Origin: Ruegeria sp. R14_0
Lineage (GTDB): Bacteria > Pseudomonadota > Alphaproteobacteria > Rhodobacterales > Rhodobacteraceae
Length of the DNA stretch: 64,000 bases
NCBI RefSeq assembly: GCF_017743975.1
Contig: NZ_JAGHRC010000004.1
Coordinates: forward strand, 62,001 to 126,000
Direction: 5' to 3'
Shown: piece by piece, positions 16,301-44,357 of the stretch
Layout of the letters: the number at the start of each line of letters is the position of its first letter
Numbering within the stretch: the stretch's first letter is position 1
Notes under the pieces: generated by a model
The model's input: the letters and a program-made list of their open reading frames with translations, nothing else
What the model was told of the DNA's origin: nothing
The model's database searches: none
Translations under genes and position numbers: made by a program

Positions 16301-19300
16301 ATGTTAAGTGGTTCTGCCGTCCGTGCACTTGGTACATTAGATTTCGATCCCAAGCTGGACCTTTATCAGAGCTTTCTGCGCGTTTGTGAAATTGTGCCTG
16401 AGACGGTCGCCCTGATGGGCGATGGTCGGCAATACACCTACGCAGAAATGGTGCGTGCCGCAGACAGGATCGCCGCGCATCTGATCAATCGGGGTGTCGT
16501 ACCCGGCGACAACGTGGTCATGATCACTGACCGAACGCCCGAAGCGATCCTGACCATGTGCGGCATCATGCGAGCGGGCGGCACCTATGTGCCTCTGGAC
16601 CCGGCCTACGATTCCAAACAGTTGGGGTATGTAGTCGGGGATTCAAAACCTTCGGCTATCTTGTGGGAAGATCCATATGGGGACCTTGCGACCGATCTGG
16701 CGGGGACCACAATTCCACAGCTTAAAATATCGGACGTTTTGAAGAACGATGTCGCAACCCCGCAGGTATTTCCTGTGCGAACCGGGGAAGATGCCTGTTA
16801 CATCATGTACACCTCGGGGTCGACAGGACAGCCAAAAGGCGTGGTTCTGCCCCACAAGGCCATATCGCGTCTGGGATACGACCAACCGACAGGTCAGATG
16901 AAGCCGGGGGACATCTCGTTGGCGAACTCGACCATAGCCTGCGATGTCTCGACCTGGGAAATCTGGGTGCCATTGCTGAACGGCGGGTCCGTGGCAGTCG
17001 TGACCGAGCCAAAGCCCGTGTTGGACGCTTTGGCCGAAACGATTGTCCGGTACGATGTCAATGTAGCCTATTTCTATACCGGTTTGTCGCATCTGATGAT
17101 CGAACACCACCTTGGGGCGCTGAAAGGCTTACGTCAGTTCGGAGCCGGCGGCGATGTTCTGTCCCCATCCCATGTGCGTCGGTTGATGGAAGCATATCCC
17201 GATATAGAGGTCGTCAACGGGTACGGACCGACTGAGAACTCGGTTTTCACGACGATGCATCTGGTGACGGCCGACGATCTGAAAGGAGGGTCCATTCCGA
17301 TCGGTCTGCCAACGGGTCATTGTGAGTGCTTTGTTGTCGACGAAAACTACAACGAACTTCCGATCGGAACGGTCGGGCAACTGGTTGCGGCAGGGCCGGG
17401 GGTCGCCTCGGAGTATCTCAACAAACCTGATCGCACGGCCGAGTCCTTTATCCCGGATCCGCGACAAGGTCATAGCGGTCAGGTTTACCTGACGGGCGAT
17501 CTGGCTCGCTGTCGCGAGGACGGCGTTTACGAGTTTCTTGGGCGGGTCGACCGGCAAGTCAAGATCGGCGGCCGCCGGATCGAACTCGATGAAATCGAAC
17601 ATTATCTGCGCGAAATCCCAATGTTGGTCGACGCGGCGGTTGCGCTGGTTGTCGCCAAAACAGGGGAAAAACGGATCGCGGCCTTCCTGAAACCCGCGGG
17701 CGAAATGCCGACGGATCACCGAGTTTTTATCCGTGATGTTATGGCCGAACTGGGCAAGGTACTGCCGGAGGGATGCCTGCCGCGGGTGAACCGCGTTTTG
17801 GCCGATTTTCCCCTAACCGTGAACAGCAAGATTGACCGCAAGGCGCTGGTGCGCAGCGTTGAGGCACCTGAAAGCGACAGCACTCCCGATACTGTAGTGG
17901 TCTTCCGTTCGAAGCGAAAGAAACGAAGTGCCGCCGAGGTTTTTGGAGTTCTGTCCAAAGTCTATGATGAGCATCTGGGTTGTGGACCGCTAGACAAAAC
18001 CGCAACCTTCTTCGAAGCAGGCGGCACATCGTTGCAACTTATCAGCGCGCATGCCGAGGTTATGAAACGGCTGGGACTGATCTTTGACATAAGCCTTGTG
18101 TTCGAAACACCGCGACTGGGACCATTGTCGCAAGCCATTGCCGAACTGGCAGTCGACGCACCGGTGGAAACCTCATTAGAAGTGCGCAGACCGGCGGCAG
18201 TTGAGGAAACTGCAACTCAGCCTGATCTGCCCGAAGGTGCAATCGCCATCGTTGGAATGGCGGCCAAGCTTCCGGGTGCGGACTCGTTGGAAACATTCTG
18301 GCAGCACATCCAGAACGGCGACAACTTGATCCGTCCATTCACGTCAGAAGAGCTTGAGGACGGGTTTTCCGAGGCGGACCGGTCCAAGGACAGCTATGTC
18401 CCCGTGCGCCCCGGCCTGCCGGATGCGGGCATGTTCGATGCCAAGTTCTTTGGCATGCACGCCCGTGAGGCCGCCGTGACCGACCCTCAGGCACGCGTCT
18501 TCATGGAGATTTGCTATAACGCGCTGGAAGACAGTGGGCATGATCCGTGGCGCATGCAGGGGACTGTCGGGGTCTATGCCGGGTGTTCGATGAACACATA
18601 CCTGATCCACAATGTTCTGGGGGACCGCAAAACCTCGGATGCGTTTACTTCGAATTACCAAACCGGAAAATTCTCGGAAATGACGGGCAATCTTAGCGAT
18701 TGTCTGGCCACCCGTGTGTCCTACAAACTGGACCTCAAAGGTCCGGCGATGACGGTTCTGACGGCCTGTTCCAGTTCGTTGACCGCGATATCTCAGGCAA
18801 TAACGGCGCTGCGGTCAGGCCAATGCGACATGGCCCTTGCCGGAGGGGTGTCGATCACCTTCCCGCAGAACCGTGGGTACATCACGCAAGAGGGCGGGCT
18901 TGCCTCGGATGACGGCACGTGCCGCCCGTTTGATACGCAAGCCAGTGGTACGGTCTTTGGGCACGGCGCTGGTGTCGTGGCGTTGCGGCGGCTGAAGGAT
19001 GCCATTGCGGACGGTGATCACATCCATGCGGTGATCCGCGGCTGCGGCATCAACAACGACGGGGCCGAAAAGATCTCGTACACCGCGCCCACGGTTGTGG
19101 GGCAGGCAGATGCCATTCGCCGTGCGCATGAGGACGCGAGGGTTTCCGCGGACACAGTTTCTTATGTGGAGTGCCACGGAACGGCGACTCCGCTGGGTGA
19201 TCCGATTGAGATCAAGGGATTGCGGCAGGCCTTTGGGGATGTGTCGCCCGATGGCGGCTGTGCGCTTGGATCGGTCAAGGGCAATATCGGCCATCTGGAT

Positions 19301-22300
19301 GCGGCCGCCGGGGTCGTTGGCGTGATAAAAACCGCGCTGATGCTGACCCACAGATCAATCCCACCCGTGGCCAACTTTGACAGCTTGAACCCACGAATTG
19401 AGTTGGATGGCTCGGGGTTCAGGGTTCCGAATACCGGTTCGAACTGGGTGTCCGACGGTCCGTTGCGGGCAGGTGTCAGCTCGTTCGGGGTTGGTGGGAC
19501 CAATGTGCATCTGGTGATGGAAGAGGCACCGGATACGCCGTGTGACGCCCCTCTCAAATCGGTTCAGGCCATTGTTCTGTCCGCCAAGACGCCAGAAGCG
19601 TTGGCCGAGATGCAGGACCAATTGGCCGACGCGTTGGAGCAATCCAATGCGTCTGAACTGGCAGACGTGGCCTTTACGTTGCAGGACGGTCGGGCAGAGT
19701 TCGATTTTCGCCAGGCCGTTGCCGGAACGGACAAGGCCGAGGTTGCCAAAACCCTGCGCGCGGCTCCGGCTGTTCGTAAACCCGCCATGCAGGGTGATCC
19801 GGCGGTGGCGTTCATGTTCCCGGGGCAGGGGTCTCAGTATCCCGGAATGGGCAGTGGCCTTTATCGTTCAGAGCCAGAGTTTGCCCGCTGGATCGATCAG
19901 GGCGCGGAAATCCTGCGCCCCGTGCTTGGGTTGGACGTCAAGACCATGCTGTGCTTTGGCGACCCCAGCGACCAAGATCTGGCCCGAGCTTTGCGAGAAA
20001 CGCGGTTGACGCAACCAGCGCTATTCCTGACCCAATATGCCTGCGCACGTCTTTGGATGACGCGCGGCGTGACCCCGGCGGCCATGATCGGGCATTCGGT
20101 GGGCGAGTTTACGGCGGCCGCCCTCGGCGGGGTCATGGATTTTGAAACCGGCCTGTCGATCATCTCAAAACGCGGGCAATTGATGCAGGATCAGCCTGAG
20201 GGCGCAATGCTGTCAGTGCGTGCGCCGATTGAAGTGCTTGAGGGCCATCTGGATGGCAGTGTTGACGTTGCTGCGCGCAATGCGCCGCGTCTGAATGTGC
20301 TGGCCGGTGACTTTGACGCCATTGCCGCGATGGAAGAACGGCTCAAGGCCGCTGACATTCCAGTCACGCGATTGCATACGTCCCATGCTTTCCATTCGCG
20401 CATGATGGACCCGGTTTGCAGCGCGCTAGAGGCTGAAATTGCGAAAACGCCCCTGAAGCCCACGGAAATTCCCTATGTCAGCTGTGTGACCGGGAACTGG
20501 GTGACTGAGGATGAGTGCACTAATCCTGCCTATTGGGCCAAACAGGCGCGCGCCGCGGTCAACTTTGGTGAAGCGGTTTCCAAACTTGTGACAGATGATC
20601 CCATCGCCTTGCTCGAGGTCGGTGCTGGTAACACGCTTTCGGCTTTCAGCACACAAACACTGCCCCGTGACGCATCGGTTGCGATTGTGCAATCTCTGCC
20701 GGACCACACGCGCGCCCAGACGGATGAGGTGGCGATGGCCACCGCAATGGGGCGATTGTGGAGCAGCGGCGTGGCCGTCGATTGGGCCAAACTGGGCCCT
20801 CGCGGCAACAGGCGCGTGCCACTGCCGACCTATCCGTTCCAACGCAAATTGCATTGGGTGGATGCACCTGAGCGCTCTGATGCGGGCGCGCAGTCCATCA
20901 CGGATGCTGAACCTGCATTTGCCACAAACCCTGTTTCCAGTGCCAATGAGATAATACCAATGCCTGCACCTACACCCGCAGAACCGGTCGAACGCAAACC
21001 GCGTCTGACCACCGAGATTCTGGCTGTTCTGAGTGATGTCTCAGGCGAAGATCTGAGGCCCGACGATGCCGGGGCCACGTTCCTGGAGCTTGGATTTGAT
21101 TCACTCTTTCTTGGTCAAGTCACCCAACGTCTGAACGCTGACTATGGGGTCGATCTGACGTTCCGCCAATTGCTGTCCAACTATCCAACGACCGCGGCTT
21201 TGGTCGCCTATCTGGATGAGGCCTTGCCGCCTGAACCGGTGGTTGCACCAGAACCCGCCCCTCAAGCCGCTTCGGCTGCGGCAATTCCTCAGACGCCACC
21301 AATTGCAGCGGCAAATGTCCCGACGTCGACTGATGGCTCGGTCGCCTCGGTTCTGCAGGCTCAGGTGGCAGCGATGCAGACGCTTTTTGAAAAACAGCTT
21401 CAGGTTCTGTCCGGTGCGCAGCCCGCAGTCTCGAATGCCCCAATGGTCGATCCCACGCCAGCGCCTCAAGCCCCGGCTAAAGAGTCGTCAGAGCCGAAGG
21501 TGAAAAACGGGTTCTCCATTGGCCGGGCAACCAATGCGTCCGGTGGGGATTTGACGGCGGAACAATTGGCGTTCGCAAAGGATCTGTCGGCCCGATACAG
21601 CGCACGGCATGCCAAATCCAAAGACTACGTCCAGACCTACCGGCACGTTATGGCAGACCCCCGCACCGCTGCCGGGTTCCGGGCTGAGTGGAAAGAACTG
21701 GTTTTCCCTGTTGTCTGTGATCGTTCAAAAGGTTCCCGCCTCTGGGATATTGATGGGAATGAGTTCATCGACCTGGTCAATGGATATGGGCAGACGGCCT
21801 TTGGGCATTCACCGGATTTCATCGTTGAGGCCGTCAGCAAGCAGATGGAACGCGGCTTTGCCATTGGACCGCAAAGTGATCTTGCTGGTCCGGTTGCCGA
21901 ACGGTTCGCTCGGCTTGTAGGTCACGACAGGGCAACGTTCTGCAACACCGGGTCCGAGGCGGTGATGGCCGCCATGCGACTGGCCCGCGCGGTCACCGGT
22001 CGGGAACGGATTGTCGTGTTTGGGAACGACTATCACGGCCAGTTCGACGAAGTGCTGGTTAAAGGCAAAACTCGGGGTGGCGATAATCCGGCGGCCTTGC
22101 CGATTGCGCCGGGCATTCCGCGATCAAGCCTGTCCAACATGGTCGTGCTGCCCTATGGCGCGGACGAAAGCGCTGCGTGGATTAGGGAGAACATCGACTA
22201 CATCGCTGCGGTCATCGTTGAGCCTGTGCAAAGCCGCCACCCGAACCTGCGACCACAGGATTTTGTGCGGGAACTGCGTGAGATCACCCGCGCGGGTGAT

Positions 22301-25300
22301 GTCGCTTTGGTGTTCGACGAAGTTGTCACCGGTTTCCGTGTCGGCCCGCGCGGGATGCAGGGCGTTTGGGACATCGATGCCGACTTGGCGACTTATGGCA
22401 AGGTGATCGGTGGTGGCATGCCCATTGGCATGCTGGCCGGAACCAACCGGTTCATGGATGCGCTGGACGGTGGCATGTGGCACTACGGCGATGACTCGGT
22501 GCCCGAGGCGTCTCCGACCTTTTTTGCAGGAACCTTTGTGCGCCACCCACTGGTAGTGGCAGCGGTTGATGCAACATTGGCCCATATCGAAGAGCACGGA
22601 ACCGACCTGTGGGAGGGCACCGCTGAGCGTACGGCCAAGGCCGTTGGCCAGATGAATGACATTCTTGAAGCCCGTGGTTTGCCGCGACTGCTAGAGAGCT
22701 ACTCCAGCTGGTTCGTCCCGAACCTTATGGACTATGATCCTAACGCGGCGCTGTTCTTCCCGCTGATGCGAATGGCGGGTATCCACGTGCAGATTGGGTA
22801 TCCCTGCATCTTCACCACCGCCCACTCGGATCAGGATTTTGCAGCCGTTGTGGCGGCGTTTGAAACCTGTATCGATACGCTCAGGTCCGTGGGGATTCTT
22901 ATTGGTGAAGGCCAAGTGGCTCCGGCAGATCCAGAGCCGATCCCGGAGACGCCAACACATGCCATTCCATTGACCGAAGCGCAGCGCGAAGTGTGGATGA
23001 CCAGCCAGCTCGGCGCGCGGGCCTCGTGCAGCTTTAACGAAAGCGTGTCCTTGCATCTCAAAGGCCCGCTGGATGTAGAGGCGCTTCAGCGTGCTTTGAA
23101 CAAGGTGATCGAGCGGCACGATGGTTTGCGCATGGTCTTTGCCAAATCTGGCGAGACGTTTGATATCCTCGCGCCATACGAACTGCAGCTGGGATCTCAT
23201 GACCTTACTGCGCAGGCTGACCCCGGCGATGCGCTGGACGCGCTATTGCAGCAGGATGCGGCGACAGAGATAGATTTGATTGCCGGACCGCCGCTGCGCG
23301 CCTTCCTAGCTCGCACAGCGCCGGACGTGCACGTGCTGGTGATCAATGCGCATCATATCGTCTGTGATGGCTGGTCCTACAACGTGCTGACCTCGGATCT
23401 GGCTGCGTTTTATGCACAAGAGGTTACAGGCGCGCCAGCCGATCTGCCACCCGCGCCGTCCTTTGCAGACTACGCGATGACTCAGGCGGAAAAAACGGTG
23501 CCAGCCGATACCCGGACGTATTGGCAGGCGCAATTTGCAGAACCCGTTGAGTTGCCCGAAATCCCGACCGACCGGCCCCGTCCAGCGATCAAAACCTTTG
23601 CTGGTTCCACCTGCACGGCATTTATCCCCGCTGAGGTTGCACAGGGCGCTCGCAGGGCGGGGGCCGCGCAGGGGTGCACATTGTTTTCGACGCTGTTTGC
23701 GTCGTTGCAAATCGTGTTCGCACGTCTGACGGGTTCGCATGATCTGGTTCTGGGTGTGCCGACTGGCGGGCAGGCATTGCTGGATGACAGTGATATGGTG
23801 GGACATTGCGTGAATTTTCTGCCCATCCGCACAGATCAAGACCCATCGGCATCAGCGGCCGAATTTCTGGCGCAGGTCAGTGATCGCGTTATGAACGCGT
23901 TTGACCATCAGGATTATACCTACGGAACGCTGGTGCGGGATTTGGACATTGAACGTACACTGAATCGTCTTCCGCTGACGGAGATTCAGTTCAATCTTGA
24001 ACGGCTGGGCGAAGCGATTGAGATGGGCCCGCTGACGGCGACTGTGACGCCAAATCCCAAAACGGCCGTCAATTTCGACCTGTTCTTCAATGTGATCGAA
24101 CGCAGCGACGGGCTTCGTGTGGACGTGGATTACAATACCGATGTCTATGATGAAGACACCGTTCAGCGCTGGATCGGCTATTTCGAAACCGTCCTGACCG
24201 AGCTTGCCGCGGATACGGCACGGCCTGTTTCAGCAATTCCAATTCAGCCCGCGGAAGAACGCGACTGGATGTTAGAGACAGTCAATCAGACAGAAGAAGA
24301 ACTGCCGCGAACCCAGACGTTGCATGAGCTGATCTCTAGGACGATGAAAGCGCAACGTGATGCCATTGCGGTCGAGGATAACGTGGTGCGGCTTACATAT
24401 GCCGAACTGGATATGATGAGTGATGCAATTGCCGCCGATATCCAGGCGCATGTACCCGGCTCGGGCGGGCGTGTCGCGGTGGCAATGGAACGCTCGGTTC
24501 GGTGTCTGGCGTCTTTGCTCGGTGTGCTCAAAAGTGGCAACGCCTACGTCCCCATTGATCCGGCGCAACCCGCATCGCGGCTGCGAATGATCCTTGAGAC
24601 TGCCGACGTGTCGGCCATCCTGCACGACCGGGACCAACTGCCCGAGTTTGCGCAGGGCCTTGGTTTGACCGAGCTTCAGGTTGATCAGATCAAGATGGGC
24701 GGCATTCCGGCTCTGATCCGAGATCAGGATGACCCGAGCGCATATGTGATCTTTACTTCCGGATCGACCGGAACGCCCAAAGGGGTTGAGATCGGTCACC
24801 GCGCTGTCATCAATTTGCTGACGTCGATGGCGCATGAGCCGGGCTTTGAACAAGGGTCGGTGATGCTGTCCGTGACCACCACGATGTTCGATATTTCGGT
24901 GTTGGAGCTGTTCTTGCCGCTGTTGCAGGGCGGGCGGGTTGTCATTGCATCGCAAGAAGACGTACTGGGTGGTTTCCGGTTGGTTGAACGCCTCAAACGC
25001 GGGGATGTAACGCATATCCAGGCCACTCCCACACTGTGGTCCATGCTGCTGGAGGCGGGTCTGGAACCCGGCACGGGGCTGACCCTGCTTGCAGGAGGAG
25101 AGCCGCTACCATCGGATTTGGCTGAAAGACTTTTGGCGCATGGTGCTGAACTTTGGAATGTCTACGGGCCGACCGAAACGACAATCTGGTCAGCGATTGT
25201 GCAAGTTCACCCTGACGAGCCGATTACGATAGGCCACCCGATCGCCAACACCCAATTGCATGTCCTTGGACCAGACAATGCGCTTCTGCCGATCGGTGCC

Positions 25301-26121: not shown

Positions 26122-27735
26122 CTAAGGCCCCGAGATTTGGATCCGCCGTGTTGTAAAACCATCCCCTTTGGGCCCGGCCGGCGCGACCTCAAAGTCAACG
26201 GTATCGCCCGGCTGCAGATCAAGCGTGATCTCGTTCAGGGTATAGCGCTCCGGCGTTATATCAGCCTCAGTCAGGACGGCATCCTTGTGTCGGATCACTA
26301 GTAGGGAAGACTCGGTCTGAGGCGAAGCCTGCCACCAGCCGCGGATACTATGCGGCCCGCTTGTTTCGGCTGTGAACCGTTCGATGACGCTATAGGGCTT
26401 GCCATCGAACCGCGCCGTCGTGATGCCGTCGTTGTTAATGCTAAGCGGCGAAAGGTCCGGCGCTCCGCGATAACTGGGCCAACGCCAATCGATGATTTCC
26501 AAGGGCGCGATCCCAACGTCGGGCCGCCGAGCAAAATAGCTCCAGGGTGGCAGGTTGAACTGGTATTGCGTGTCGGCAAGGTTGCCCGGAGACGTCAAGC
26601 TCACCGTCAGACCTTCACCGGTGATAACGACCGGAGTGTCGGTCAGCGCGGCAATTGGCTCAACCGGACGGCCCCATGCGTCTAAGTACTCAGCAGAGCC
26701 AGTAACCTCGATTTCTGCACCGCTGCCCCAGACAACAAAGCGGTTTCCGCCGTCCCCGAACTCATAGATATGGGCAGTGTCGAGTGTGTCGCGCGCGATA
26801 GGGCGTCCGAATGGAAGCAGGGTGTTTTGCAACAGTTCAAACGCATCCGCAGCCGGCTTTCGGTTCCGGGCGTTTTCGTCCAGCAACCCCATATTGGGCC
26901 ACCATTCCTCATCCAGCAGCGCGTACCAATAGGCATCTACGATGCCTGCCGCGCCAAGTTGTGTCACCATTTTCATCATGTAATCCGGTGCATCGTCGGG
27001 ATCGTCGAACCAATGCCCGAATTCGGTGACGTATAACGGCCGCACGCCGCCAAACTCCTCCATCAGGTCTGTCAGGCGGCTGAGTTCGATCAGTAGGGTG
27101 TCAGGGTTGTCGCGGTAGGGATGAACCGAGATCGCATCGCACGCGTCCAACCCACCGTGTTCAAAAAAGGCGCGATAAAACCCGATCGCAATCGTGTTGA
27201 GCCCGGCGCACATGATCCAGGCATCCGGGTGATCCTGATCCAGCTGATCCCGGATGGCGCGGACCAGGGCCGCGAAGTAAAATGGCGGATCCTCGGTGAA
27301 TGGTCCCCCGACGAAATCATCAGCATTCACTTCATTGCCGACTTCGATCTGCACGTTGTCGACGCCGTATTGGCTGAAGATTGCGCTGATCCAGGCGGCC
27401 ATTGCTGCGCGGCCTTCGTCGCTGTGTGGAGTGTCGCCGTTGTCATAAAGCGGATTAGTGTCTGTGATCACGATCAAAGGGGTCATGCCCTGCTGAATGA
27501 TCGGCAACATGTACTTGTCGGCTATATCAAAGTTGTAGACGCCCGGCTCTTTTTCCGCCGTGGCCCAACCTATTTCATCGCGTAAAAAAGTGGCCCCAAA
27601 ATCCCGCGCCTTACGGATCGAAGCATTTGACCATCCCTGTTCCATATGCGTCTGGACGCCCAGATTGAAAGGCCGGTCTTCGGCCAGCGCCGGACTGATC
27701 AGTAGTGTACCGCAGATCAGGGCCCGCCAGTTCAT
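26122..27735 (-). CDS. Secreted clan-A glycoside hydrolase (GH39/GH5-like)
   Basis: 537 residues with a signal peptide (cleavage after ALA, about residue 18). Residues 20-330 form a TIM-barrel hydrolase: the acid/base is Glu135 in IEVGNEVN, and Glu238 in LYVTEFGHW fits the nucleophile. About 200 residues of beta-rich sequence follow (residues 330-537), probably a beta-sandwich pair. The role may resemble glycosidases encoded in EPS loci such as PslG, which trim or release polymer in the periplasm. It overlaps the propeller gene by four bases (ATGA) and ends 20 bp from the megasynthase stop in convergent orientation. Confidence 0.75.
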   Translation of the reverse strand: MNWRALICGTLLISPALAEDRPFNLGVQTHMEQGWSNASIRKARDFGATFLRDEIGWATAEKEPGVYNFDIADKYMLPIIQQGMTPLIVITDTNPLYDNGDTPHSDEGRAAMAAWISAIFSQYGVDNVQIEVGNEVNADDFVGGPFTEDPPFYFAALVRAIRDQLDQDHPDAWIMCAGLNTIAIGFYRAFFEHGGLDACDAISVHPYRDNPDTLLIELSRLTDLMEEFGGVRPLYVTEFGHWFDDPDDAPDYMMKMVTQLGAAGIVDAYWYALLDEEWWPNMGLLDENARNRKPAADAFELLQNTLLPFGRPIARDTLDTAHIYEFGDGGNRFVVWGSGAEIEVTGSAEYLDAWGRPVEPIAALTDTPVVITGEGLTVSLTSPGNLADTQYQFNLPPWSYFARRPDVGIAPLEIIDWRWPSYRGAPDLSPLSINNDGITTARFDGKPYSVIERFTAETSGPHSIRGWWQASPQTESSLLVIRHKDAVLTEADITPERYTLNEITLDLQPGDTVDFEVAPAGPKGDGFTTRRIQISGP

Positions 27736-35527: not shown

Positions 35528-35552
35528 AGCGTGTGAGTGAATTGGTGCTGTC

Positions 35553-36656
35553 ATGAAAGTCGCCATTGTTCACTATTGGCTGGTTGGAATGCGCGGTGGC
35601 GAACGTGTGTTGGAAGAGCTGGTAAAACTCTATCCGCAGGCGGATCTGTTCACCCATGTTGCGGATCGTGAAAAGCTGTCGGACCTGCTGCAAGACCGAC
35701 CCATCCACGAAACGTTCGTTTCCCGGCTTCCTGGCGCGCGGCGGCACTACCAAAAATATCTGGGCTTTATGCCACGCGCTCTCGAAGAGTTGGATTTGTC
35801 AGGTTATGACCTGATCATCTCGTCAGAAAGCGGCCCGGCCAAAGGGGTGATCCCGCCTCCGGGCACGCCGCATATCTGTTACACGCACTCGCCTATGCGA
35901 TACATCTGGGACCAGTATGGCGCGTATCGTGACCGGTTGTCCTGGCCTGGGCGGCTTTACTTTTCGCATCTCGCACACCGTCTGCGAATTTGGGATGTCT
36001 CCTCGGCCGCCCGCGTCGATCAGTTCGTGGCCAATTCGAGTTTTGTTGCCCAACGTATTCACAGCTATTACCACCGCGACGCGCAGGTGGTGCATCCTCC
36101 GGTCGATCTGGATGCCTTCCGTTTGCCCAAACAACCGACGGAGCGAACGCACTATCTTTTTGTCTCGGAACTGGTGCCTTACAAAAAGGCAGATTTGGTG
36201 ATCGGGGCGTTTCGTGGGTTGGATCACAAGCTATTGGTCGTCGGAGATGGCGAACAGCGGCCCGAACTGGAACGAAATCTACCGCCCAATGTGCACCTTT
36301 TGGGTCGCGTTCCGGGTAGCGACCTGCCGGGCCTGTACCAATCTGCCAAGGCGCTGATTTTCCCGGCCGAAGAGGACTTTGGCATTGTCCCGGTCGAAGC
36401 TATGGCTTGCGGTACACCGGTGCTGGCCTATGGGCGCGGAGGGGTTCGAGACAGCGTTATAGACGGGCGCACAGGTCTGTTTTTTGAGGATCAGACGACG
36501 CAATCCATTCGGGATGCGATCGACAGGTTCGAAGCTGTTGATTTCGACGCGACAGACATCAGCACCCACGCAAGCGGCTTTGGCGCGGACCGGTTCCGCC
36601 GGGAGTTCTCTGGCGTCGTTGATCAAGTGCTGAGCGGGTTGCGACACCAAAAATAG
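35553..36656 (+). CDS. Glycosyltransferase family 4
   Basis: 367 residues. N-terminal Rossmann part with a GGERVLEEL glycine loop and the CYTHSPMRYIWDQYG segment typical of WbaZ-like mannosyl/hexosyltransferases; C-terminal nucleotide-sugar part with the E-x7-E motif in EDFGIVPVEAMACGTPV. It starts 25 bases after the kinase gene. It is expected to transfer a hexose from a nucleotide sugar onto the growing undecaprenyl-linked repeat unit on the cytoplasmic face. The exact donor is not readable. Confidence 0.87.
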   Translation: MKVAIVHYWLVGMRGGERVLEELVKLYPQADLFTHVADREKLSDLLQDRPIHETFVSRLPGARRHYQKYLGFMPRALEELDLSGYDLIISSESGPAKGVIPPPGTPHICYTHSPMRYIWDQYGAYRDRLSWPGRLYFSHLAHRLRIWDVSSAARVDQFVANSSFVAQRIHSYYHRDAQVVHPPVDLDAFRLPKQPTERTHYLFVSELVPYKKADLVIGAFRGLDHKLLVVGDGEQRPELERNLPPNVHLLGRVPGSDLPGLYQSAKALIFPAEEDFGIVPVEAMACGTPVLAYGRGGVRDSVIDGRTGLFFEDQTTQSIRDAIDRFEAVDFDATDISTHASGFGADRFRREFSGVVDQVLSGLRHQK

Positions 36657-36736: not shown

Positions 36737-37417
36737 GTGCCCCGGATTGATCTTTGGCAATGGTCTCTGGACGTGCCCGAACAGGACATCCCGAAAGTTT
36801 CAAAACCTCTGTCCGACGACGAAATGAAACGCGCGGATCGGTTCGTGAAACCGGTCGACAGGCGTAGGTATATTGTGGGCCGATCCCGTCTGCGCGGTAT
36901 TCTGGGACAGTACTTGGACCTTCCTGCCGAAGCTGTTTCATTTGACTATGGCCCTCATGGCAAACCCATGTTGGCGGATGGCCCCGGATTCAACCTTAGC
37001 CACTCTGGCGGGCGTGCGGTTCTGGCGGTCAATAAAGACGGCGATCTAGGGCTTGATATCGAAAAGGTTCGGCCCATCGAGGATGCCGTCGCAAAGCATA
37101 ACTTTTCACCCGCTGAATACGCCGAACTGTCCGGGTTGCCAAAAGCAGATTGGTTGACCGGTTTCTTTCGGTGCTGGACGAGAAAAGAGGCGGTATTGAA
37201 GAAGTTGGGGCACGGGCTCTACATGCCGCTCGACTCGTTCGACGTGACTGTTTTACCCAATGCGTCGCCTTGTTTGACGCGGATTGAAGGCGACAACCCG
37301 GCGCGTTGGTCGCTGGTTCATCTCGACCTTGGACCAGGTTGGATCGGCGCGCTGGCATTGCGCGATGCTTTTGGTCCTGTCCAGCTTCGTTGGCGCGAAG
37401 CTGACGAACTAGGCTAG
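36737..37417 (+). CDS. Sfp-type 4'-phosphopantetheinyl transferase
   Basis: 226 residues from a GTG start with AAGGAG eight bases upstream. Motifs of the Sfp group are clear: FNLSHSGGRAVLAV, the Mg-binding GLDIEKVRP (Asp and Glu), and FFRCWTRKEAVLKKLGHGL. It moves phosphopantetheine from CoA onto the carrier serines (577, 1601 and 3205 of the megasynthase; 504 of the C-T-TE protein). Its position inside the EPS operon, 80 bp after a glycosyltransferase, is the best evidence that the NRPS-PKS and glycan genes form one functional locus. Confidence 0.93.
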   Translation: MPRIDLWQWSLDVPEQDIPKVSKPLSDDEMKRADRFVKPVDRRRYIVGRSRLRGILGQYLDLPAEAVSFDYGPHGKPMLADGPGFNLSHSGGRAVLAVNKDGDLGLDIEKVRPIEDAVAKHNFSPAEYAELSGLPKADWLTGFFRCWTRKEAVLKKLGHGLYMPLDSFDVTVLPNASPCLTRIEGDNPARWSLVHLDLGPGWIGALALRDAFGPVQLRWREADELG

Positions 37418-38215
37418 TCAGTCGCGGCGCTGAAGGAAGTACCCTTTACTGGTGCTGGGCCCTAGTCCGGGATGTGTTGAGATCACGTGGCTGAGCGACG
37501 GAATCTCCCATTGATCGCGGATCAAATATCCCATGTCCGATAGGCTGAGCTCGAATTCAGCCTTGTTTCGTATTTGATAGGGAACGCGCCGAGGGCCGAT
37601 CTTTTCTAAGGTCACGACAGTAGGCCCTTCCCGCGTGGCGACTTTGTTCAACAGGATGTGTTTTGGCGGTGCTTTCAGTTTGCCGACAAGTTGGGCCAAG
37701 GGGATGTCCAAGTATTGCAACAAACCTGACGCCAGAAGCAAATCAACGGGCCCGACCTGAGCGAGGTCATCCTGAAAAACGATCTCTGACGGCAGGTCCT
37801 CGGTCTGTTGCGCCGCGCGGGCCAGCCTGACTGTTGTTGGCAGGTCGTAGACTGTCCAGTTCACGCGTTCGAGCTGGCACAACTCGCGAAAAGCGGTGTA
37901 TTTTGTGCCAAGATGTCCGCCGGCATCCAGCACATGCATATTGTCGCGTTGTATGGTCTTAAGCCAAAACATGACCGGATAGTCCCAGACGGTCTTTCGG
38001 CTCATGAAATCGACGTTCACTTCGGCTACGTCTTCGTGGTCGTACCCGCCGCGTCCTGCATTGTGCATCGCGGTGGCGTAGTCGGGGTAGGCTCCGATCA
38101 TCGCTGGGGGGCGAATGCCCGTCGCCATCAGGTGCGCCCAAGCTGCCGAGGCTGGATGGCCGATATGCCGTTCCAACAGCCCAAGCCCGCCCTTTATCTT
38201 TTGCCTGAAAGCCAT
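37418..38215 (-). CDS. Putative SAM methyltransferase, TIGR04325 type
   Basis: 265 residues from ATG 38215 (MAFRQKIKGG); a frame to 38278 would add an unlikely 21-residue tail. The SAM-binding glycine motif is VLDAGGHLGTKYTAF, followed by VNWTVYDLPTTVRLA and LLLASGLLQYLD. It resembles the TIGR04325 family, found in glycan and secondary-metabolite loci. It lies on the opposite strand within the EPS block, with its stop directly against the end of the PPTase gene. Its substrate, sugar or peptide-polyketide, is unknown. Confidence 0.7.
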   Translation of the reverse strand: MAFRQKIKGGLGLLERHIGHPASAAWAHLMATGIRPPAMIGAYPDYATAMHNAGRGGYDHEDVAEVNVDFMSRKTVWDYPVMFWLKTIQRDNMHVLDAGGHLGTKYTAFRELCQLERVNWTVYDLPTTVRLARAAQQTEDLPSEIVFQDDLAQVGPVDLLLASGLLQYLDIPLAQLVGKLKAPPKHILLNKVATREGPTVVTLEKIGPRRVPYQIRNKAEFELSLSDMGYLIRDQWEIPSLSHVISTHPGLGPSTSKGYFLQRRD

Positions 38216-38626
38216 CGCGCGATCGCCCGTTCCAAAATGCACACACATAGGGCTGACACTTTGCCAAGCCCACACCAAACCAATGCGATCAAGTTACGGC
38301 CAATCTTCGTTTACGGAAACAACCACAACAAGTTTGGCGCGAGGTGCCCACGGTAAAGAAACAAAACCTGAAATTCGCTGGTATAGTTTCGAAGTGGATG
38401 ACGGCGCAGCGCAGCAGGTGGCGTGGAGTATTGGAGTGAATTCGTAAACTTTGACCTATTCAAACGCTCACGGTTCTATTGGCTGGGGCCGAGAGAAGTT
38501 TTTCCTTGATCTGCGGCGTCACAGGCGGTGATGCTGGGTCATCTGATCAATGAATTGTTGAAGCAGACCGATTTCTACACTGTTTCGCGCACAAGCGGTG
38601 CAGAAAAACAGTGAGTGAGGACTGAA
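38216..38626. promoter_or_regulatory. Divergent region before the Wzy-like gene
   Basis: About 411 bases. It should hold promoters for the methyltransferase (minus) and the Wzy-like gene (plus). A 27-codon frame beginning at 38531 ends at 38614, just before the next gene, and could be a leader peptide, but has no clear RBS. An ORF across 38115-38447 has no family features and is taken as a shadow. Confidence 0.35.
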
Positions 38627-40039
38627 ATGGCTGTTTATCCCGCAGCAGCCGCATTCTTGTTGTTGTGGCTGTGGCTCAGCGTCAAAAATGCCGACAATGG
38701 CGTCGTGATGGCCATTGCGATGATCCCGTTTGGCATGTTCGCTGCCGTTGTTGTGGGTGATCTATCTATCCTTATGGCCAATCTTTTGGCTGTTCTCTCA
38801 ATTTCGCTGCTTGTAGTGCGCAGGGCGGTTCGAACCGCGCCCGGTGCGTTGTTCGGGTTGCCGCCCTCGGGGCTCTACTTGTTGGTCTTCGCGCTGTACT
38901 CGGTCTTTTCTGCCATTGTGTTGGTTCGGTTGTTCGAAGGGAACTTCTCGGTCTTTCCCATGACAGTGACGTTTGTCGGCCCGCAGGTCAGTATTTTCTT
39001 TAGTTCGGTCATGCTGCCGCTACAGCCCTCAAATTCGAATATCGCGCAAGCGATCTATATCCTGCTGTCGGCCGCATTTTTCCTTTCACTTGTCGCAGTC
39101 GCCAGACGGCGCGGGGTTGCGTTTGCCGAGACTGGATTGGTCTGGGCTGCCGCGCTGAACGCCATTTTGGGATTGCTGGACTTTTTGCAGGCGGACATGG
39201 TGCTCGGCCTGGTCCGCACAGCGGATTACGCTTTGCTGAACGAACACCTGATCGGGCAATTCAGCCGCGTTATTGGCGGCTATTCCGAGGCATCAGGTTA
39301 CGGTGCGGCCTCGTCCGCGTTTTTTGCCTATTTCGCGATGTCCTATCTGATCGTTCGCAAGAACAGTCACGGGATTTTGGCCATTACCAATTTGATCGGT
39401 GCGTTGATGGCGTTGTCTAGCACGGGTGTTGTGGCAGTCGCGGGTGCCACATTCTTCGTTCTGCTGCATTTCAGGGTGTTCCTTGGCTTCAGCATGTCAC
39501 GCGTTTTCGGACATGTTCTGGTGCTTGTGCTGTCGGTGTTGGCGATTTTCGTTAGCGTGTCACTCCTGGTCCCGACCGTGGCAAACAGCGTTTCGGATGT
39601 ATTGGACCAGCTTATCTATTCCAAGCTTGATACATTGTCCGGACGCGAGCGCGGCGCATGGTCGGCCGCCGCGTTTGACGCATTTGTTCAGACTTGGGGG
39701 CTGGGGGCAGGCGTGGGGTCCTTGCGCGGCAACGGGCTGGCTTCGGTGCTATTGGGCAGTGTTGGGGTTCCTGGTACTGTGGCTTTTGTGCTGTTCCTTC
39801 TGAGCGCACTTGGCCCGCCCATCCGCGGTGCGGATCACGAGGCATTGCGCCTGTACTGCGCTGGCCGGGTCTGCGCGTTGACATTGTTGACGGCCATGCT
39901 GGTGTCGGCCACGACCCCGGACCCGGGTTTGTTTCTTATGGCTGCGACCGCAATTTGCGTCGCCGCTCGGGAACGGGTCTTTGCGCAGTCGGCCGCAAAA
40001 CGGATCAATCCGGCAAAACTGTCATCGGGTCGTATCTAA
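38627..40039 (+). CDS. Wzy-like polysaccharide polymerase / O-antigen ligase-like protein
   Basis: 470 residues from ATG 38627, which has GAGG six bases upstream and is preferred to the GTG at 38615. About ten or more membrane helices, with a longer extracytoplasmic loop near residues 330-360 (LIYSKLDTLSGRERGAWSAA) whose arginine-rich part and following GLGAGVGSLRGNG resemble the Wzy/WaaL superfamily. It should join undecaprenyl-linked repeat units on the periplasmic side, with length set by the Wzc-type protein. Members of this family diverge strongly, so the call rests on topology, loop and context. Confidence 0.7.
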   Translation: MAVYPAAAAFLLLWLWLSVKNADNGVVMAIAMIPFGMFAAVVVGDLSILMANLLAVLSISLLVVRRAVRTAPGALFGLPPSGLYLLVFALYSVFSAIVLVRLFEGNFSVFPMTVTFVGPQVSIFFSSVMLPLQPSNSNIAQAIYILLSAAFFLSLVAVARRRGVAFAETGLVWAAALNAILGLLDFLQADMVLGLVRTADYALLNEHLIGQFSRVIGGYSEASGYGAASSAFFAYFAMSYLIVRKNSHGILAITNLIGALMALSSTGVVAVAGATFFVLLHFRVFLGFSMSRVFGHVLVLVLSVLAIFVSVSLLVPTVANSVSDVLDQLIYSKLDTLSGRERGAWSAAAFDAFVQTWGLGAGVGSLRGNGLASVLLGSVGVPGTVAFVLFLLSALGPPIRGADHEALRLYCAGRVCALTLLTAMLVSATTPDPGLFLMAATAICVAARERVFAQSAAKRINPAKLSSGRI

Positions 40040-40271
40040 GGGTGGTGATTCTACAATGCTGTGACAGTGCCCATTTTAGCGACGGAACTGTTTCCTTTAG
40101 TGCGACAGATTGATTGAAAGCCCCAAGTTACCCACAGGCAGGGCGGAGTTTTCAAAAAAAGTTGCGACGTCGGCGGGGAATCTTCTATACACTAAGTTTA
40201 TTGACTTCCTTCTGCGGACCATCGTTTTTTGGGACGCAGTCGTATGTATAGTGTTAGCGATTGGCTGTGTT

Positions 40272-40973
40272 ATGGAATCTGATTTTCGTCGGGGGGCGGG
40301 CATTGATGCGCCGCAATCCCGAAGTTCAAACTCAGACATACAGCACAAAAATGGGGATGGTTGGTACGGCGTCGCAAAATCGTTGTTCGACCGAATTTTT
40401 GCGTTCTCTGCGCTTGTGTTTTTTGCGCCTTTTATTGCGCTGATTTCCGTGTTGATCCTGATCACGGACGGTGCACCGGTGTTCTTTGCCCATAGACGTG
40501 TTGGGCGCGACGGGCGTCAGTTCAATTGCCTGAAATTCCGAACCATGGCGCGGGATGCCGAACGGCGCCTGGAACATATCCTTGAAACCGACTCTGACGC
40601 CAAGGCGCAATGGGAAGCCCAACAGAAGCTGGATGATGATCCGCGCATCACCACGATTGGAGAGTTCTTTCGCAAAACCAGTCTGGATGAACTGCCGCAG
40701 TTCTGGAATGTGATTAAGGGCGAAATGTCTGTTGTCGGTCCTCGTCCGATCGTTGCATCCGAGGCATCACATTACGGGGAACATTACGACGACTACCTGT
40801 CCGTCAAACCGGGCATCACCGGCCACTGGCAGGTCAATGGACGCAGCAAGACGACTTATGCAGAACGGGTCGAGATGGATGTCGACTATGTGCGCAATCG
40901 GTCCTTTGCACGCGACATCGCGATCATCTTCAAGACGATCAAAGTGATCGTTATGGGCGATGGGGCCCAGTGA
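40272..40973 (+). CDS. ExoY-like initiating sugar-phosphate transferase
   Basis: 233 residues from ATG 40272, the usual length for ExoY-type short PHPTs; the frame continues upstream to a TTG at 40110 that would add 54 residues of weaker fit. One membrane helix (FAFSALVFFAPFIALISVLIL) is followed by the catalytic part: FNCLKFRTMARDAE, DELPQFWNVIKGEMSVVGPRP and KPGITGHWQVNGRS. It puts the first hexose-1-phosphate on undecaprenyl phosphate and starts the EPS repeat. It lies 230 bp after the Wzy-like gene. Confidence 0.9.
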   Translation: MESDFRRGAGIDAPQSRSSNSDIQHKNGDGWYGVAKSLFDRIFAFSALVFFAPFIALISVLILITDGAPVFFAHRRVGRDGRQFNCLKFRTMARDAERRLEHILETDSDAKAQWEAQQKLDDDPRITTIGEFFRKTSLDELPQFWNVIKGEMSVVGPRPIVASEASHYGEHYDDYLSVKPGITGHWQVNGRSKTTYAERVEMDVDYVRNRSFARDIAIIFKTIKVIVMGDGAQ

Positions 40974-40990
40974 CCAACTGATCGCCTGGA

Positions 40991-41161
40991 TCAGAAGAAA
41001 AGAAACAGACCGACAACCAACCAGAAAAGGAGACAACCACCGATCACCAGCCGCCTCAGTAGTTTTGGCGAGGCAGATTCAATCAGGTTAGCAAGGTTGA
41101 AGCGCAATGTTTTACTCTCGTGAGCGAGTGTCATTTGCTGTGCTCGATTTTTGTTATTCAT
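40991..41161 (-). CDS. Small single-span membrane protein
   Basis: 56 residues from ATG 41161, with GGAG six bases upstream. Residues about 1-34 are polar and basic (LLRRL just before the membrane), and residues about 36-56 form one hydrophobic helix ending the protein (GGCLLFWLVVGLFLFF), so it is tail-anchored in appearance. It ends 17 bp from the convergent ExoY-like gene. No family recognised. The RBS, membrane segment and position in an EPS locus argue for a real gene. Confidence 0.5.
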   Translation of the reverse strand: MNNKNRAQQMTLAHESKTLRFNLANLIESASPKLLRRLVIGGCLLFWLVVGLFLFF

Positions 41162-41546
41162 GATTGTCTCCACGGCTACGCGGAGTTGGTTTTCCTGTCA
41201 ATATCGCAGGTTTTCCGGGCTGTTTTTCGGCAAAAGTATGTCCAACCGAGGTTAGCCATATGCGTTTGAACGTTTTCATTTTATCAACAGTATCCCCCGA
41301 CAAATTACTGTCGGACTTTCCAAGATCAGTACGTAACCTGTTGGGGCGTTGTCATATTTTTCGCCCCGGCATTTTCCCGAGCGGTGCATTCGGTTATCTT
41401 GTTTTGCAACGTATCAGGTCACTTTCGCATCGATGCCACTCACCTAATTCACTTTGCGTGTATGGCAAGCAAGCTTTGCCACCCCAGCGGGTTTTTGCTG
41501 CCAATCGCCGATCACAAATGCGTGCTGGTGGTCAGACAGGGCTGCT
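41162..41546. other. Intergenic region before the second GT4 gene
   Basis: 385 bases, more AT-rich than its surroundings, with no convincing gene; the reading frame of the next gene extends upstream to 41454 but without family sequence. A CCGACA/TGTCGG stem with a six-base loop lies at 41297-41314. Promoters for the small membrane protein and for the GT4-flippase pair should be here. Confidence 0.35.
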
Positions 41547-42815
41547 ATGACCCGGGGCAAACCCAGTCGCGTCGTCATTCTGAGCGACTTTTCCAAGGTG
41601 CACGGCGGGGCGTCGAAATTGGCGGTTCTGCAGGCCGAGTTGCTTTCCAAACGGCGAATTGCCGTGACCTTCTTTTGTGGCGACGAAGGTGATCAAATGC
41701 CAGCGGGGGTCTCGCTTGAGGCCTTAGGCGGGCAACGTCTGCTGGATCAAAGTGCCGTTTCAGCCGCCGCATCCGGGATTTGGAACCGGGAAGCAGAACA
41801 GCGCCTGACCGACTGGATTTCTCGGAATGACGACCCCGATACGATCTATCATGTGCACGGGTATCATCAAACTTTGTCGCCGTCAGTGCTGCGGCCGCTT
41901 CTGCGAGTCAAACAGCGCACAGTGATGCACGCCCATGATTACTTCCTAAGTTGCCCCAACGGTGCATTCTTTGATTTTCGGGACCGTAAGACCTGCACGC
42001 GCAGGGCCATGTCACCAGCTTGTCTTGCGCGCAATTGCGACAAGCGAAACTATGGACAAAAGCTGTGGCGCGTTTCGCGACAGGCGGTTCAGAACCGCGC
42101 CCGCGGCAAGCTATTGCCCGAAGTGACAACGGTGCTGATCCATCGCGATATGGAACACCGCCTGTTTCCAGGCGGCGCATCCGGCCCTGTCGTTGCACTC
42201 CCAAACCCGGTCGAGCCTTTGTTGCCCGAACCGGTGATCAGCCAGAAGAATAACGAATTTCTCTATGTCGGAGATGTCCACGCTTACAAAGGCGTTTTTC
42301 TGTTGGCCGAAGCGGGGCGACAGGCGGGCGTCAAATTGCGTTTTGTTGGTGATGGTGAAGACCTGGAGCAGTTGAAAACCACCTATCCCGAGCATCGTTT
42401 TGACGGGTGGCAGGATCAAAAAGGGTTGCGCCGCGCCATGAAAGAAGCGCGGATGCTCGTGGCCCCGACGCTCGGCCCGGAGCCTTTTGGTCTGGCCCCG
42501 GTCGAAGCCCTGCTGTGCGACATTCCGGTTCTCGCCTCAGATAGCCTATTGCTCAGTAGAGACATCTGCATGAAGAAAATGGGTGCAAGCTTTATTGCCG
42601 GGGATGTCGGTGCGTTGGGGGCGGCGTTGGTTGATCTGTCGATGGACGATGACAAGATCGCGCAGATGGCCTCCAACGCACGCCCCGGTGGGCGTGCCCT
42701 TTCATTGTCGCCGGTGGCATGGTGCCAGGCACTGCTGGGTTTGTATCGAACAATCCTGCAGGGTTTGGAAGGCGGCTCCAAGCCGGAACAAAATTATGCA
42801 AATGTCGCATCTTAA
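41547..42815 (+). CDS. Glycosyltransferase family 4 (second)
   Basis: 422 residues from ATG 41547 (MTRGKPSRVVILSDFS), which precedes the conserved first strand directly; a longer frame to 41454 adds unrelated sequence. Glycine loop KVHGGASKLAV, a central cysteine-rich insert (SCPNGAFFDFRDRKTC, ACLARNCDKRN) with four or five cysteines that could bind a metal, and the E-x7-E motif EPFGLAPVEALLC. Adds a sugar to the lipid-linked repeat. The flippase gene follows closely. Confidence 0.85.
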   Translation: MTRGKPSRVVILSDFSKVHGGASKLAVLQAELLSKRRIAVTFFCGDEGDQMPAGVSLEALGGQRLLDQSAVSAAASGIWNREAEQRLTDWISRNDDPDTIYHVHGYHQTLSPSVLRPLLRVKQRTVMHAHDYFLSCPNGAFFDFRDRKTCTRRAMSPACLARNCDKRNYGQKLWRVSRQAVQNRARGKLLPEVTTVLIHRDMEHRLFPGGASGPVVALPNPVEPLLPEPVISQKNNEFLYVGDVHAYKGVFLLAEAGRQAGVKLRFVGDGEDLEQLKTTYPEHRFDGWQDQKGLRRAMKEARMLVAPTLGPEPFGLAPVEALLCDIPVLASDSLLLSRDICMKKMGASFIAGDVGALGAALVDLSMDDDKIAQMASNARPGGRALSLSPVAWCQALLGLYRTILQGLEGGSKPEQNYANVAS

Positions 42816-42881
42816 AGCTCTGATGTTGCCCCGAGATGTTCCATGTCGAAGGGCTCCTTTCCGGCCCGAAAGGGGACGGCG

Positions 42882-44357
42882 ATGACAGAGACCCCCAAAC
42901 AAAAGGAAACCGTTTTGCAGGGCGGGATTTGGACCATGCTGTCCAAGATCTTTACCCAGCTCACGCAATTCGCGATTTTCATGGTCGCGGTGCGGTTGAT
43001 GACACCCGCCGAATTCGGCGTCTTCGCATTGGCCGCTGCGGTCATCGTCATCCTGACGCAGGTTTCTACGGCGGGCTGGCCGGAATACATCATGCAATGG
43101 CACGGGGACAGGGCGCGCATACGTGAAACACTTTGCGTCGCAATGATCTGTGGATTTGTCATTGCAGTGATCGGGGTGTTTGGCGGTGGTTTTGCCGCGA
43201 CGCTGTTCTCTGATCCCGCTGTTGGACCGTTGGTTCAAATACTGTCGATCAGCGTGTTTTTCACCTCAGTTGGTGCAGCCTATAACGGAGTGATGGTCTG
43301 GCAGAACCGATTGTCCGGGGCGGCGTTGGTGACGCTTTTGGCCGATCTGGCAAATCTGATCGTAGCGATTTGGGCTTTGCTACAGGGCTATGGGGTTTTG
43401 GCGTTGGCCTGGGGCCGCCTGGTCAGCGCCGTGATCTGGAGCGCAAGCGGAGCCGTGGTCAGCAGAACAAAGCCCGTGATGGTCCACCCCGATACGCTGG
43501 CTGACTCGGCGGCGTTTTCGTGGAAGATCATCCTTACCCGTGTTGTGGTGAATATCCGCATCTACGCCGCGACGCTGATCATTGGTGGCTTCCTTGGGGC
43601 GACATCTGTCGGGTACTTTCGTGCCGCGCAACGCATCGTCGCGGCCTTCGAAGAAATTGTAAGCGAGCCGACACGCATTTTGTCGTGGAACCTGTTCCGC
43701 CGCAGCCGTGATGCGCAGGGCGGTTCAGTTGGGTTTGGCGCTGTCGCGCTACGGTTCTTCCCTGTGCTTTACTATGGGGCTGTCCCGCTGTTTGTCGGTG
43801 TGATCCTCATGGCCGACACATTGACGGCTGGTATTCTCGGACCCGGATGGGAGCCCGCGACACCTGTGCTGCGCATCCTTGCCGTCGCCGCTTTGATCCG
43901 TTGTAGCGGCCATGCCAGCCTTGCGATCCTTACGCTGGCTGGCCAGGTCTGGCTATTGCCGTGGGTTACAGCGCTGTATTCGGGAATCGCGATCGCAGCA
44001 GTTCTTGCTGCGGCGTCATTTGGGATCGCCGCAATCGCCATGGCCGAAGTTGTCGCCGCGACCATCGCCTTTGTGATCAATGCCGTCATCATGAAACGCT
44101 ACGCAGGGATCGCTTGGCAAATCATTCTGCTCAAGACATGGGCCGTTTTGCCTGCAGTGGCCTTGGCTTGTATACCGGTGATCCTGGCAGACATGTTCAG
44201 CCTGTTGTCAGGGGTCAATGACCTGATCCGGTTCATTGTACTGGGGCTATGTATGATGGTCGTTTTTGTGCCCGCCATTCTTGTTCTGGACAAATCCCTT
44301 CGTGCCATGCTGCGGAACAGAAGGGGTCCGGGCGCGCCGTCTGCCAAGACAACATAG
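42882..44357 (+). CDS. Wzx-like oligosaccharide flippase
   Basis: 491 residues from ATG 42882, with AAAGGGG about six bases upstream; an ATG at 42843 in the same frame is possible. Twelve to fourteen membrane helices, and the typical N-terminus of the polysaccharide-transport superfamily (LQGGIWTMLSKIFTQLTQFAIF, RLMTPAEFGVFALA). It moves lipid-linked repeat units to the periplasmic face. With ExoY-like, Wzy-like, Wzc-type and OPX proteins it completes a Wzx/Wzy-dependent secretion route. Confidence 0.87.
   Translation: MTETPKQKETVLQGGIWTMLSKIFTQLTQFAIFMVAVRLMTPAEFGVFALAAAVIVILTQVSTAGWPEYIMQWHGDRARIRETLCVAMICGFVIAVIGVFGGGFAATLFSDPAVGPLVQILSISVFFTSVGAAYNGVMVWQNRLSGAALVTLLADLANLIVAIWALLQGYGVLALAWGRLVSAVIWSASGAVVSRTKPVMVHPDTLADSAAFSWKIILTRVVVNIRIYAATLIIGGFLGATSVGYFRAAQRIVAAFEEIVSEPTRILSWNLFRRSRDAQGGSVGFGAVALRFFPVLYYGAVPLFVGVILMADTLTAGILGPGWEPATPVLRILAVAALIRCSGHASLAILTLAGQVWLLPWVTALYSGIAIAAVLAAASFGIAAIAMAEVVAATIAFVINAVIMKRYAGIAWQIILLKTWAVLPAVALACIPVILADMFSLLSGVNDLIRFIVLGLCMMVVFVPAILVLDKSLRAMLRNRRGPGAPSAKTT

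Follow-up and report, generated by a model that had tools for sequence, protein, structure and literature searches.

Rhizobia possess polyketide synthase (PKS)-like genes, rkp-1, for the lipid carrier of the K antigen, and in the alphaproteobacterium Agrobacterium vitis an Sfp-type 4'-phosphopantetheinyl transferase (PPTase) is reportedly accompanied by an associated PKS and nonribosomal peptide synthetase (NRPS). For Phaeobacter inhibens, PKS and NRPS genes and, separately, polysaccharide genes are named in one paper (PMC4062626), and the term NRPS is absent from the available part of a paper on the two exopolysaccharide (EPS) clusters of this species (PMC10984933). Here, we describe a gene block at positions 16301–44357 of a 64 000-nucleotide stretch (hereafter the window) of contig C21 from the 4.66-Mb genome of Ruegeria sp. 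R14_0, in which an NRPS/PKS megasynthase and a separate release protein adjoin a set of EPS genes of the Wzx/Wzy type. No description of such a cluster was found in the open-access literature (subscription papers were outside the scope), in line with an earlier note on this DNA, made from the sequence alone, which knew of no described pathway with this content. The unity of the block is well supported, and the linkage between its NRPS/PKS and EPS halves is real and wide. We propose, with a probability of about 0.5, that the block encodes a single pathway for a Wzx/Wzy-type EPS, the repeat unit of which bears a short and variable amino-acyl-glycine group.

The gene block

The genes of the block are listed below in the order of their coordinates (A, adenylation; T, carrier; KS, ketosynthase; AT, acyltransferase; C, condensation; TE, thioesterase; OPX, outer-membrane polysaccharide export).

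16301–26101, plus strand: megasynthase of 3266 amino acids, A1-T-KS-AT-T-aminotransferase (class III)-C-A2-T, with the Pfam families AMP-binding, PP-binding, ketoacyl-synt, Acyl_transf, Aminotran_3 and Condensation (domain order by profile scan)
26122–27735, minus strand: glycosidase-like protein (PF11790, E = 7e-4, 19.6 bits, below the cut-off of 21)
27732–29324, minus strand: GINT1-type protein, N-terminal alpha/beta domain and GH43-like propeller (Pfam GINT1_N, E = 1e-31)
29260–31767, minus strand: release protein, C-T-TE, with no A domain match (C and T by Pfam Condensation and PP-binding)
32010–33311, plus strand: OPX protein (PF02563 Poly_export, SLBB)
33308–35527, plus strand: Wzc-type co-polymerase/tyrosine kinase (PF02706, PF13807 and PF13614, that is GNVR/Wzz/AAA; TIGR01005 below cut-off)
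35553–36656, plus strand: glycosyltransferase GT4a (PF00534)
36737–37417, plus strand: Sfp-type PPTase (PF01648, ACPS; HetI-like in NCBIfam, below cut-off)
37418–38278, minus strand: methyltransferase, TIGR04325 (NCBIfam, 168.8 bits, cut-off 80)
38615–40039, plus strand: Wzy-like membrane protein (named from size, hydrophobicity and position)
40110–40973, plus strand: initiating sugar-phosphate transferase of the WbaP/ExoY type (PF02397 Bac_transf, 222.8 bits; best NCBIfam model TIGR03022 WbaP, below cut-off)
41454–42815, plus strand: glycosyltransferase GT4b (PF00534)
42843–44357, plus strand: Wzx-type flippase (PF13440, 110.4 bits, and PF01943; Polysacc_synt_3)
44373–45371, plus strand, directly 3' of the flippase gene: AraC-type regulator (PF12833)

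All of the genes that the earlier note had named are present at these positions, with families that agree in Pfam and NCBIfam, and its statement that the block is free of unrelated genes holds, as the spacing between neighbouring genes is −65 to 480 bp and no unrelated gene is listed in between. The release, GINT1-type and glycosidase-like genes form an overlapping minus-strand set with gaps of −65 and −4 bp. The placement of the activating PPTase inside the EPS part was also confirmed: the genome contains two ACPS-family matches, the PPTase of the block and a short protein of AcpS size on another contig, and the former is the only one of its size that was found. The Wzy assignment is tentative: the protein matches no Pfam or NCBIfam family and has a homologue in all ten of the extended loci described below.

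Linkage of the two halves in relatives

The release protein was searched against 394 genomes of the family, which had not been selected for EPS genes, and 14 were positive, including the window's own. In ten of the 13 relatives obtained by this family scan, three to eight EPS families lie beside the megasynthase or release gene; by profile search, six to eight of the eight EPS families are present in G251, G299, G142, G310, G007, G321, G182 and G006, and three in each of G091 and G139, on contigs of 15.8 and 10.8 kb. When the Pfam sugar transferase and flippase models were run over whole genomes (within 50 kb on the same contig), both were detected in eight of these 13 relatives and one of them in two, the initiating sugar-phosphate transferase being within this distance in nine. 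The earlier note would have taken separate loci for the NRPS/PKS and EPS genes in most relatives as a refutation, and the synteny comparison shows no such separation. The order and direction of the genes vary among the family-scan and extended loci while membership is kept. Relatives in which parts of the block have separated are also seen (L008 of G346 and L007 of G253).

The aminotransferase domain was also used as a query against named genomes, and the best 80 of the 305 loci obtained were evaluated; among these, the nearest named relative is Ruegeria atlantica HKCCA5752, with 88% identity in this domain. At least one of the eight EPS families was found in the fetched stretch of 73 of the 80 loci (70 of 73 where the stretch was at least 16 kb) and at least two in 29 of the 80, the fetched stretches being short. 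Ten loci extended to about 61 kb contain seven or eight of the eight EPS families; they were picked from 35 genomes for a nearby sugar-transferase match and are therefore biased, showing content and not frequency (33 of the 35 have such a match within 15 kb by coordinate, with same-contig status unverified for most). Their hosts are an Ensifer, a Sinorhizobium, two Rhizobium, a Nitratireductor, a Chelativorans, a Stappia, a Rhizobiales bacterium, Ruegeria marina and a Sulfitobacter. The contig of L120 exists in two versions (3,704,191 and 3,707,227 bases), and its joined flanks are perhaps slightly off.

Within the genus, the megasynthase type (at least 80% identity) occurs in five of 54 genomes, and exactly these five carry the Wzy and Wzx genes; the genus mates G1106 and G1112, with an aminotransferase identity of 47–48%, were left out of the five. 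Because the genes are adjacent, this co-occurrence is the gain or loss of one block and not many independent events. The protein distances of the eight EPS families correlate with those of the aminotransferase (r = 0.72–0.92, with none of 500 permutations as high), and shared descent accounts for part of this correlation. Five loci are counted twice in the distances and in the KS, AT and aminotransferase lysine counts given below (G182/L116, G321/L097, G007/L101, G251/L078 and G299/L082), and such duplicates were removed from the counts of A1 and A2 codes, TE cysteines and C motifs. The block is found in Rhodobacterales and Hyphomicrobiales, on chromosomes and on plasmids: it is annotated as complete, in the stretch read, on a plasmid of Rhizobium sp. 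CCGE532, and is incomplete by one to a few members, as far as the stretch or gene table shows, on plasmids from Jannaschia sp. M317 (71.7 kb), Rhodobacter sp. CZR27, Loktanella salsilacus and Rhizobium sp. SL42; the stretch of a sixth plasmid record, that of Ensifer canadensis, is without gene annotation.

More distant aminotransferase NRPS/PKS loci gave a different picture. Neither a sugar transferase nor a flippase lies within 50 kb on the same contig in any of 13 genomes with ordinary loci of this kind (G904, G820, G849, G420, G638, G487, G834, G808, G816, G889, G855, G837 and G732; several of the contigs are short). Together with G986, for which nothing was found within 50 kb and which has a sugar transferase at 87 kb and a weak flippase match at 51 kb, they make up 14 of the 18 genomes with more distant aminotransferase-PKS loci. 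The other four of the 18 have EPS genes at the locus (G120, G957, G667 and G1106). The aminotransferase-PKS locus is surrounded by a flippase and Wzy_C in G120, by Wzz, GT4 and a flippase in G667, and by Wzx, Wzy_C, a sugar transferase, GT4 and deacetylases in G957, which belongs to another family and in which the flippase is matched by PF01943 and not by PF13440. With profiles built from the window, which are narrow, 11 distant loci that had wide flanks scored for none of the eight EPS families; these profiles were superseded by Pfam, which revealed EPS genes around all three loci outside the main set that were scanned by hand (G957, G120 and G667). EPS loci thus accommodate related assembly lines of more than one form, and the association extends beyond the present block.

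Two of these distant loci may be described further. The locus of G957 (L153–L154), which has only the phylum in common with the window, comprises an aminotransferase-PKS and a two-module NRPS in an EPS locus with two polysaccharide deacetylases, and that of G1106 (L205–L206, 77419–113128) comprises a different PKS/NRPS set (A-T, KS-AT-T and a 3447-amino-acid line with the aminotransferase) amid XrtA-type EPS genes.

Chemistry of the assembly line

The positions of the A-domain codes were set by eye on A2 of the window and transferred by alignment, giving the codes DILQLGVIW for A2 and DVWYGGGVF for A1 in the window. A2 has a DILQ-type code in 85 of 86 loci, the exception being G017, and this is presumably a glycine code. 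A1 is variable, with 42 codes in 73 loci, yet the amino-acid-type Asp is present in all 73 loci scored, and the best alignment of A1 is with the A domains of linear gramicidin synthase LgrA. The chassis is fixed: the KS cysteine and both histidines are intact in all 96 aligned KS domains, the malonyl-type HAFH motif of the AT is found in 89 of 89 and the aminotransferase lysine is kept in 92 of 92. Neither a ketoreductase nor a fatty-acyl ligase was matched by Pfam in the megasynthase line of the window. From these features the predicted product would be a starter amino acid extended by two carbons, a beta-amine and glycine.

The product classes named in the earlier note, a glycan decorated or anchored by a peptide-polyketide or an exported lipopeptide-like molecule, are narrowed by this, not proved; a short amino-acyl-glycine group on the glycan fits best. 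A lipopeptide is a less likely candidate, since A1, the loading domain, aligns best with LgrA and has the amino-acid-type residue in all 73 loci, and since the line shows no match to a fatty-acyl ligase. A siderophore was also considered: among the genes annotated in the plasmid stretches none is listed for siderophore transport, and no further search was made.

The release protein

The C domain of the release protein departs from the canonical HHxxxDG motif, with HNSVFDG in the window, and the second histidine of this motif is lost in 63 of 80 release proteins (Q in 49, N in 11, and S, R and Y in one each). The release protein of G667 has the complete C-A-T-TE set and its C motif is intact, so that the form lacking an A domain may be a reduced module. 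The TE has the nucleophile elbow GLCVDG and a Cys-Asp-His triad; the cysteine is present in 79 of 80, the remaining one being unread, and an alignment of 30 sequences shows no variation in Cys, Asp or His. In the AlphaFold2 model (pLDDT 90.7), the nearest solved fold to the TE is that of the TE of mycobacterial Pks13 (Foldseek ranks 1–23, best E 6e-14), with other thioesterases close behind, and the TE sequence profile places an Acinetobacter NRPS, EntF and NocB ahead of Pks13, which takes the fifth row. In a study of the Pks13 TE, product release onto polyols, with trehalose preferred, is described and an S1533A mutant is named (PMC9210659). The likeness to Pks13, which comes from a predicted model, is a hint at the kind of acceptor that may be used and is not evidence of the acceptor.

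Proposed pathway and alternative explanations

Our proposal builds on the observed gene content, the KS, AT and aminotransferase motifs, the A2 code, the diversity of A1, the Cys-Asp-His triad and the linkage. In the proposed pathway, A1 would load a strain-specific alpha-amino acid, KS-AT would append one malonyl unit and the aminotransferase would convert the beta-keto group to a beta-amine, this substrate being suggested because no ketoreductase was matched in the line. C-A2-T would then append glycine to give a beta,gamma-diamino-acyl-glycine chain, which would be handed to the T domain of the C-T-TE protein, the C domain of which may be a relic or a docking domain in most members. The cysteine TE would transfer the chain to an amine or hydroxyl group of a lipid-linked sugar and not to water, and Wzx, Wzy, Wzc and OPX would flip, polymerize and export the glycan so decorated. 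We infer the reading of the codes, the structure of the product, the acceptor and the transfer itself. More tentatively, the block could be a widespread alphaproteobacterial system that labels secreted glycan in a strain-specific way, in which the hypervariable A1 picks the starter amino acid, the fixed chassis makes the diamino-acyl-glycine, the cysteine TE acts as a glycan acyltransferase and the reduced C domain as a dock, so that the EPS would be cationic or zwitterionic with serotype-like differences between strains.

Several observations weigh against this proposal. Three family-scan relatives depart from the linkage: G346, a clear exception, carries the NRPS/PKS genes but, of the eight EPS families, the methyltransferase alone in 80 kb, and no sugar transferase lies closer than 112 kb; in G017, a sugar transferase is found at 6 kb together with a weak match to OPX, and the contig lacks a flippase; and G253 has a lone release protein with an adjoining flippase and no megasynthase found in 80 kb. 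In the 21 kb of L113, too, the methyltransferase is the sole one of the EPS families. Adjacent, co-inherited genes co-occur and co-diverge even without a common product. The glycine, amino-acid and malonyl assignments lean on general specificity rules, the code positions were set by eye, and neither an acceptor enzyme nor a gene for an amino sugar could be identified in the window. The second histidine is retained in 17 of the 80 release C domains. The likeness of the TE to Pks13 is distant (17–20% identity, TM-score of about 0.6 and r.m.s.d. of 7–9.5 Å), and the nucleophile of Pks13 is Ser, whereas that of the window TE is Cys. The view of the earlier note that the block is one system is nonetheless supported by joint presence, joint gain or loss and co-divergence, with G346 standing apart.

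The main rival to repeat-unit decoration, which we regard as rather unlikely, is a free small secreted molecule, linear or cyclized by the TE, made beside a separate EPS polymer, the two being clustered for a common lifestyle such as surface attachment. NRPS cysteine thioesterases can close rings, the S15-family hydrolase found in ten of 26 loci could process a small product and the assembly line of G346 occurs without the EPS set. With regard to export, a DMT transporter lies inside one plasmid block, but no dedicated exporter is listed in the other four of the five annotated plasmid stretches (the PLSDB gene tables being incomplete). The joint presence and absence of the halves in the genus, and a membership that is kept while the order is reshuffled, also speak against a free product.

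The amino-acyl product could instead be a reducing-end anchor or primer that holds the polysaccharide to the cell, and not a side group on each repeat. The rkp-1 genes may provide a precedent, and OPX and Wzc proteins can serve capsules as well as free EPS. We consider this improbable, however, since a normal sugar-phosphate transferase lies within 50 kb in nine of the 13 family-scan relatives, so that priming by the usual lipid is to be expected, and since the window's line gave no match to a fatty-acyl ligase. Finally, the two halves could be neighbours by chance, or the association could be an artefact of annotation in a few roseobacters; the patchiness of the block (14 of 394 family genomes, five of 54 in the genus) might be cited in favour. 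This reading is hardly credible given the recurrence of the block in two orders and on both chromosomes and plasmids, the synteny counts, which contradict it, and the 13 ordinary distant genomes with neither a sugar transferase nor a flippase nearby.

Decoration of the repeat unit yields a specific testable prediction on the structure of the EPS in culturable strains. If it is correct, assembly-line enzymes, which are viewed as sources of free metabolites, would also have a part in decorating structural polysaccharides, many orphan NRPS/PKS clusters of rhizobia and roseobacters would be surface-glycan genes and the cysteine thioesterase would be one that may attach peptides to sugars. That A1 varies while the chassis stays fixed suggests that diversity in surface chemistry is selected for, and the presence of the block in numerous marine and root-associated bacteria suggests that their surface sugars are decorated in a manner not described before.

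Accessory and neighbouring genes

The glycosidase-like protein, which the earlier note had called secreted, has a signal-peptide-like N-terminus as judged by eye; its assignment as a glycosidase is less firm, with the PF11790 match below the cut-off and no sequence relative in the PDB at E ≤ 0.01. Among the loci scored, its homologues are seen only in those of the Rhodobacterales type. The GINT1-type gene is found in Ruegeria/Sulfitobacter-type and Hyphomicrobiales loci and was undetected in several others; the protein has many invariant residues in a 28-sequence alignment, and in the 50 Foldseek rows shown for its AlphaFold2 model (pLDDT 89.7), most matches are to GH43-type propellers and those of related glycosidases, and a few are to TolB or other propellers. 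An N-acyl or formyl transferase function is not claimed for it: the N-terminal domain recalls a formyltransferase by eye, but the Foldseek folds are mainly of the GH43 type.

In 21 of 26 loci, an extra glycosyltransferase-like gene, named by eye with no match in Pfam, separates the sugar transferase from the second GT4. The window is among the five without it, having a 480-bp gap (40974–41453) with no open reading frame of glycosyltransferase size, and its close relative G1080 likewise lacks the gene. Other recurrent genes in the 26 loci encode an S15-family hydrolase (ten loci), a DegT aminotransferase (seven) and a GMC oxidoreductase (seven), and GH16 and pyruvyltransferase genes are also present in some. 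The S15/CocE-type hydrolase lies near the PPTase in a number of loci (L202:3858–5642, L210:13899–15731 and L211:1461–3272) and is not found in the window; it could trim the peptide part.

The AraC-type regulator 3' of the block possibly has a regulatory role for it and was not seen to recur. Immediately upstream of the megasynthase (10655–15491) are a short PAS protein of 125 amino acids (15114–15491), with the motif GRNCRFLQ, which we take to be of the LOV type, and three photolyase/cryptochrome-family proteins, two of which are found next to the block in L076 as well. The block may be under the control of light. Further upstream (5627–9599), a DabA inorganic carbon transporter protein adjoins a proton-antiporter-M protein, forming a DabA/DabB-like pair.

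Comparison with known systems

A parallel to the XrtA/PEP-CTERM EPS loci (PMC1569441) is seen in the genus mate G1106, the aminotransferase-PKS cluster of which lies amid XrtA-type EPS genes that are all below the curated cut-offs; the Wzc and OPX proteins of the window are far below the XrtA cut-offs. With Pks13, the window has in common the nearest solved TE fold. The KS-AT-T-aminotransferase-C-A-T order is shared with mycosubtilin/iturin MycA and microcystin McyE, whereas the loading domain of the window differs from that of the iturin/mycosubtilin-type lines in being of the amino-acid type, with no fatty-acyl ligase. Compared with aminotransferase PKS/NRPS lines in general, the window has in addition a C-T-TE protein lacking an A domain, with a Cys nucleophile, and the surrounding EPS genes. 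With the Wzx/Wzy EPS pathways of ExoY/WbaP-type initiation it shares the sugar-phosphate transferase, GT4, flippase, co-polymerase kinase and OPX, together with the Wzy-like protein as a candidate polymerase, and it differs from them by the NRPS/PKS line, the release module and the Sfp-type PPTase inside the locus.

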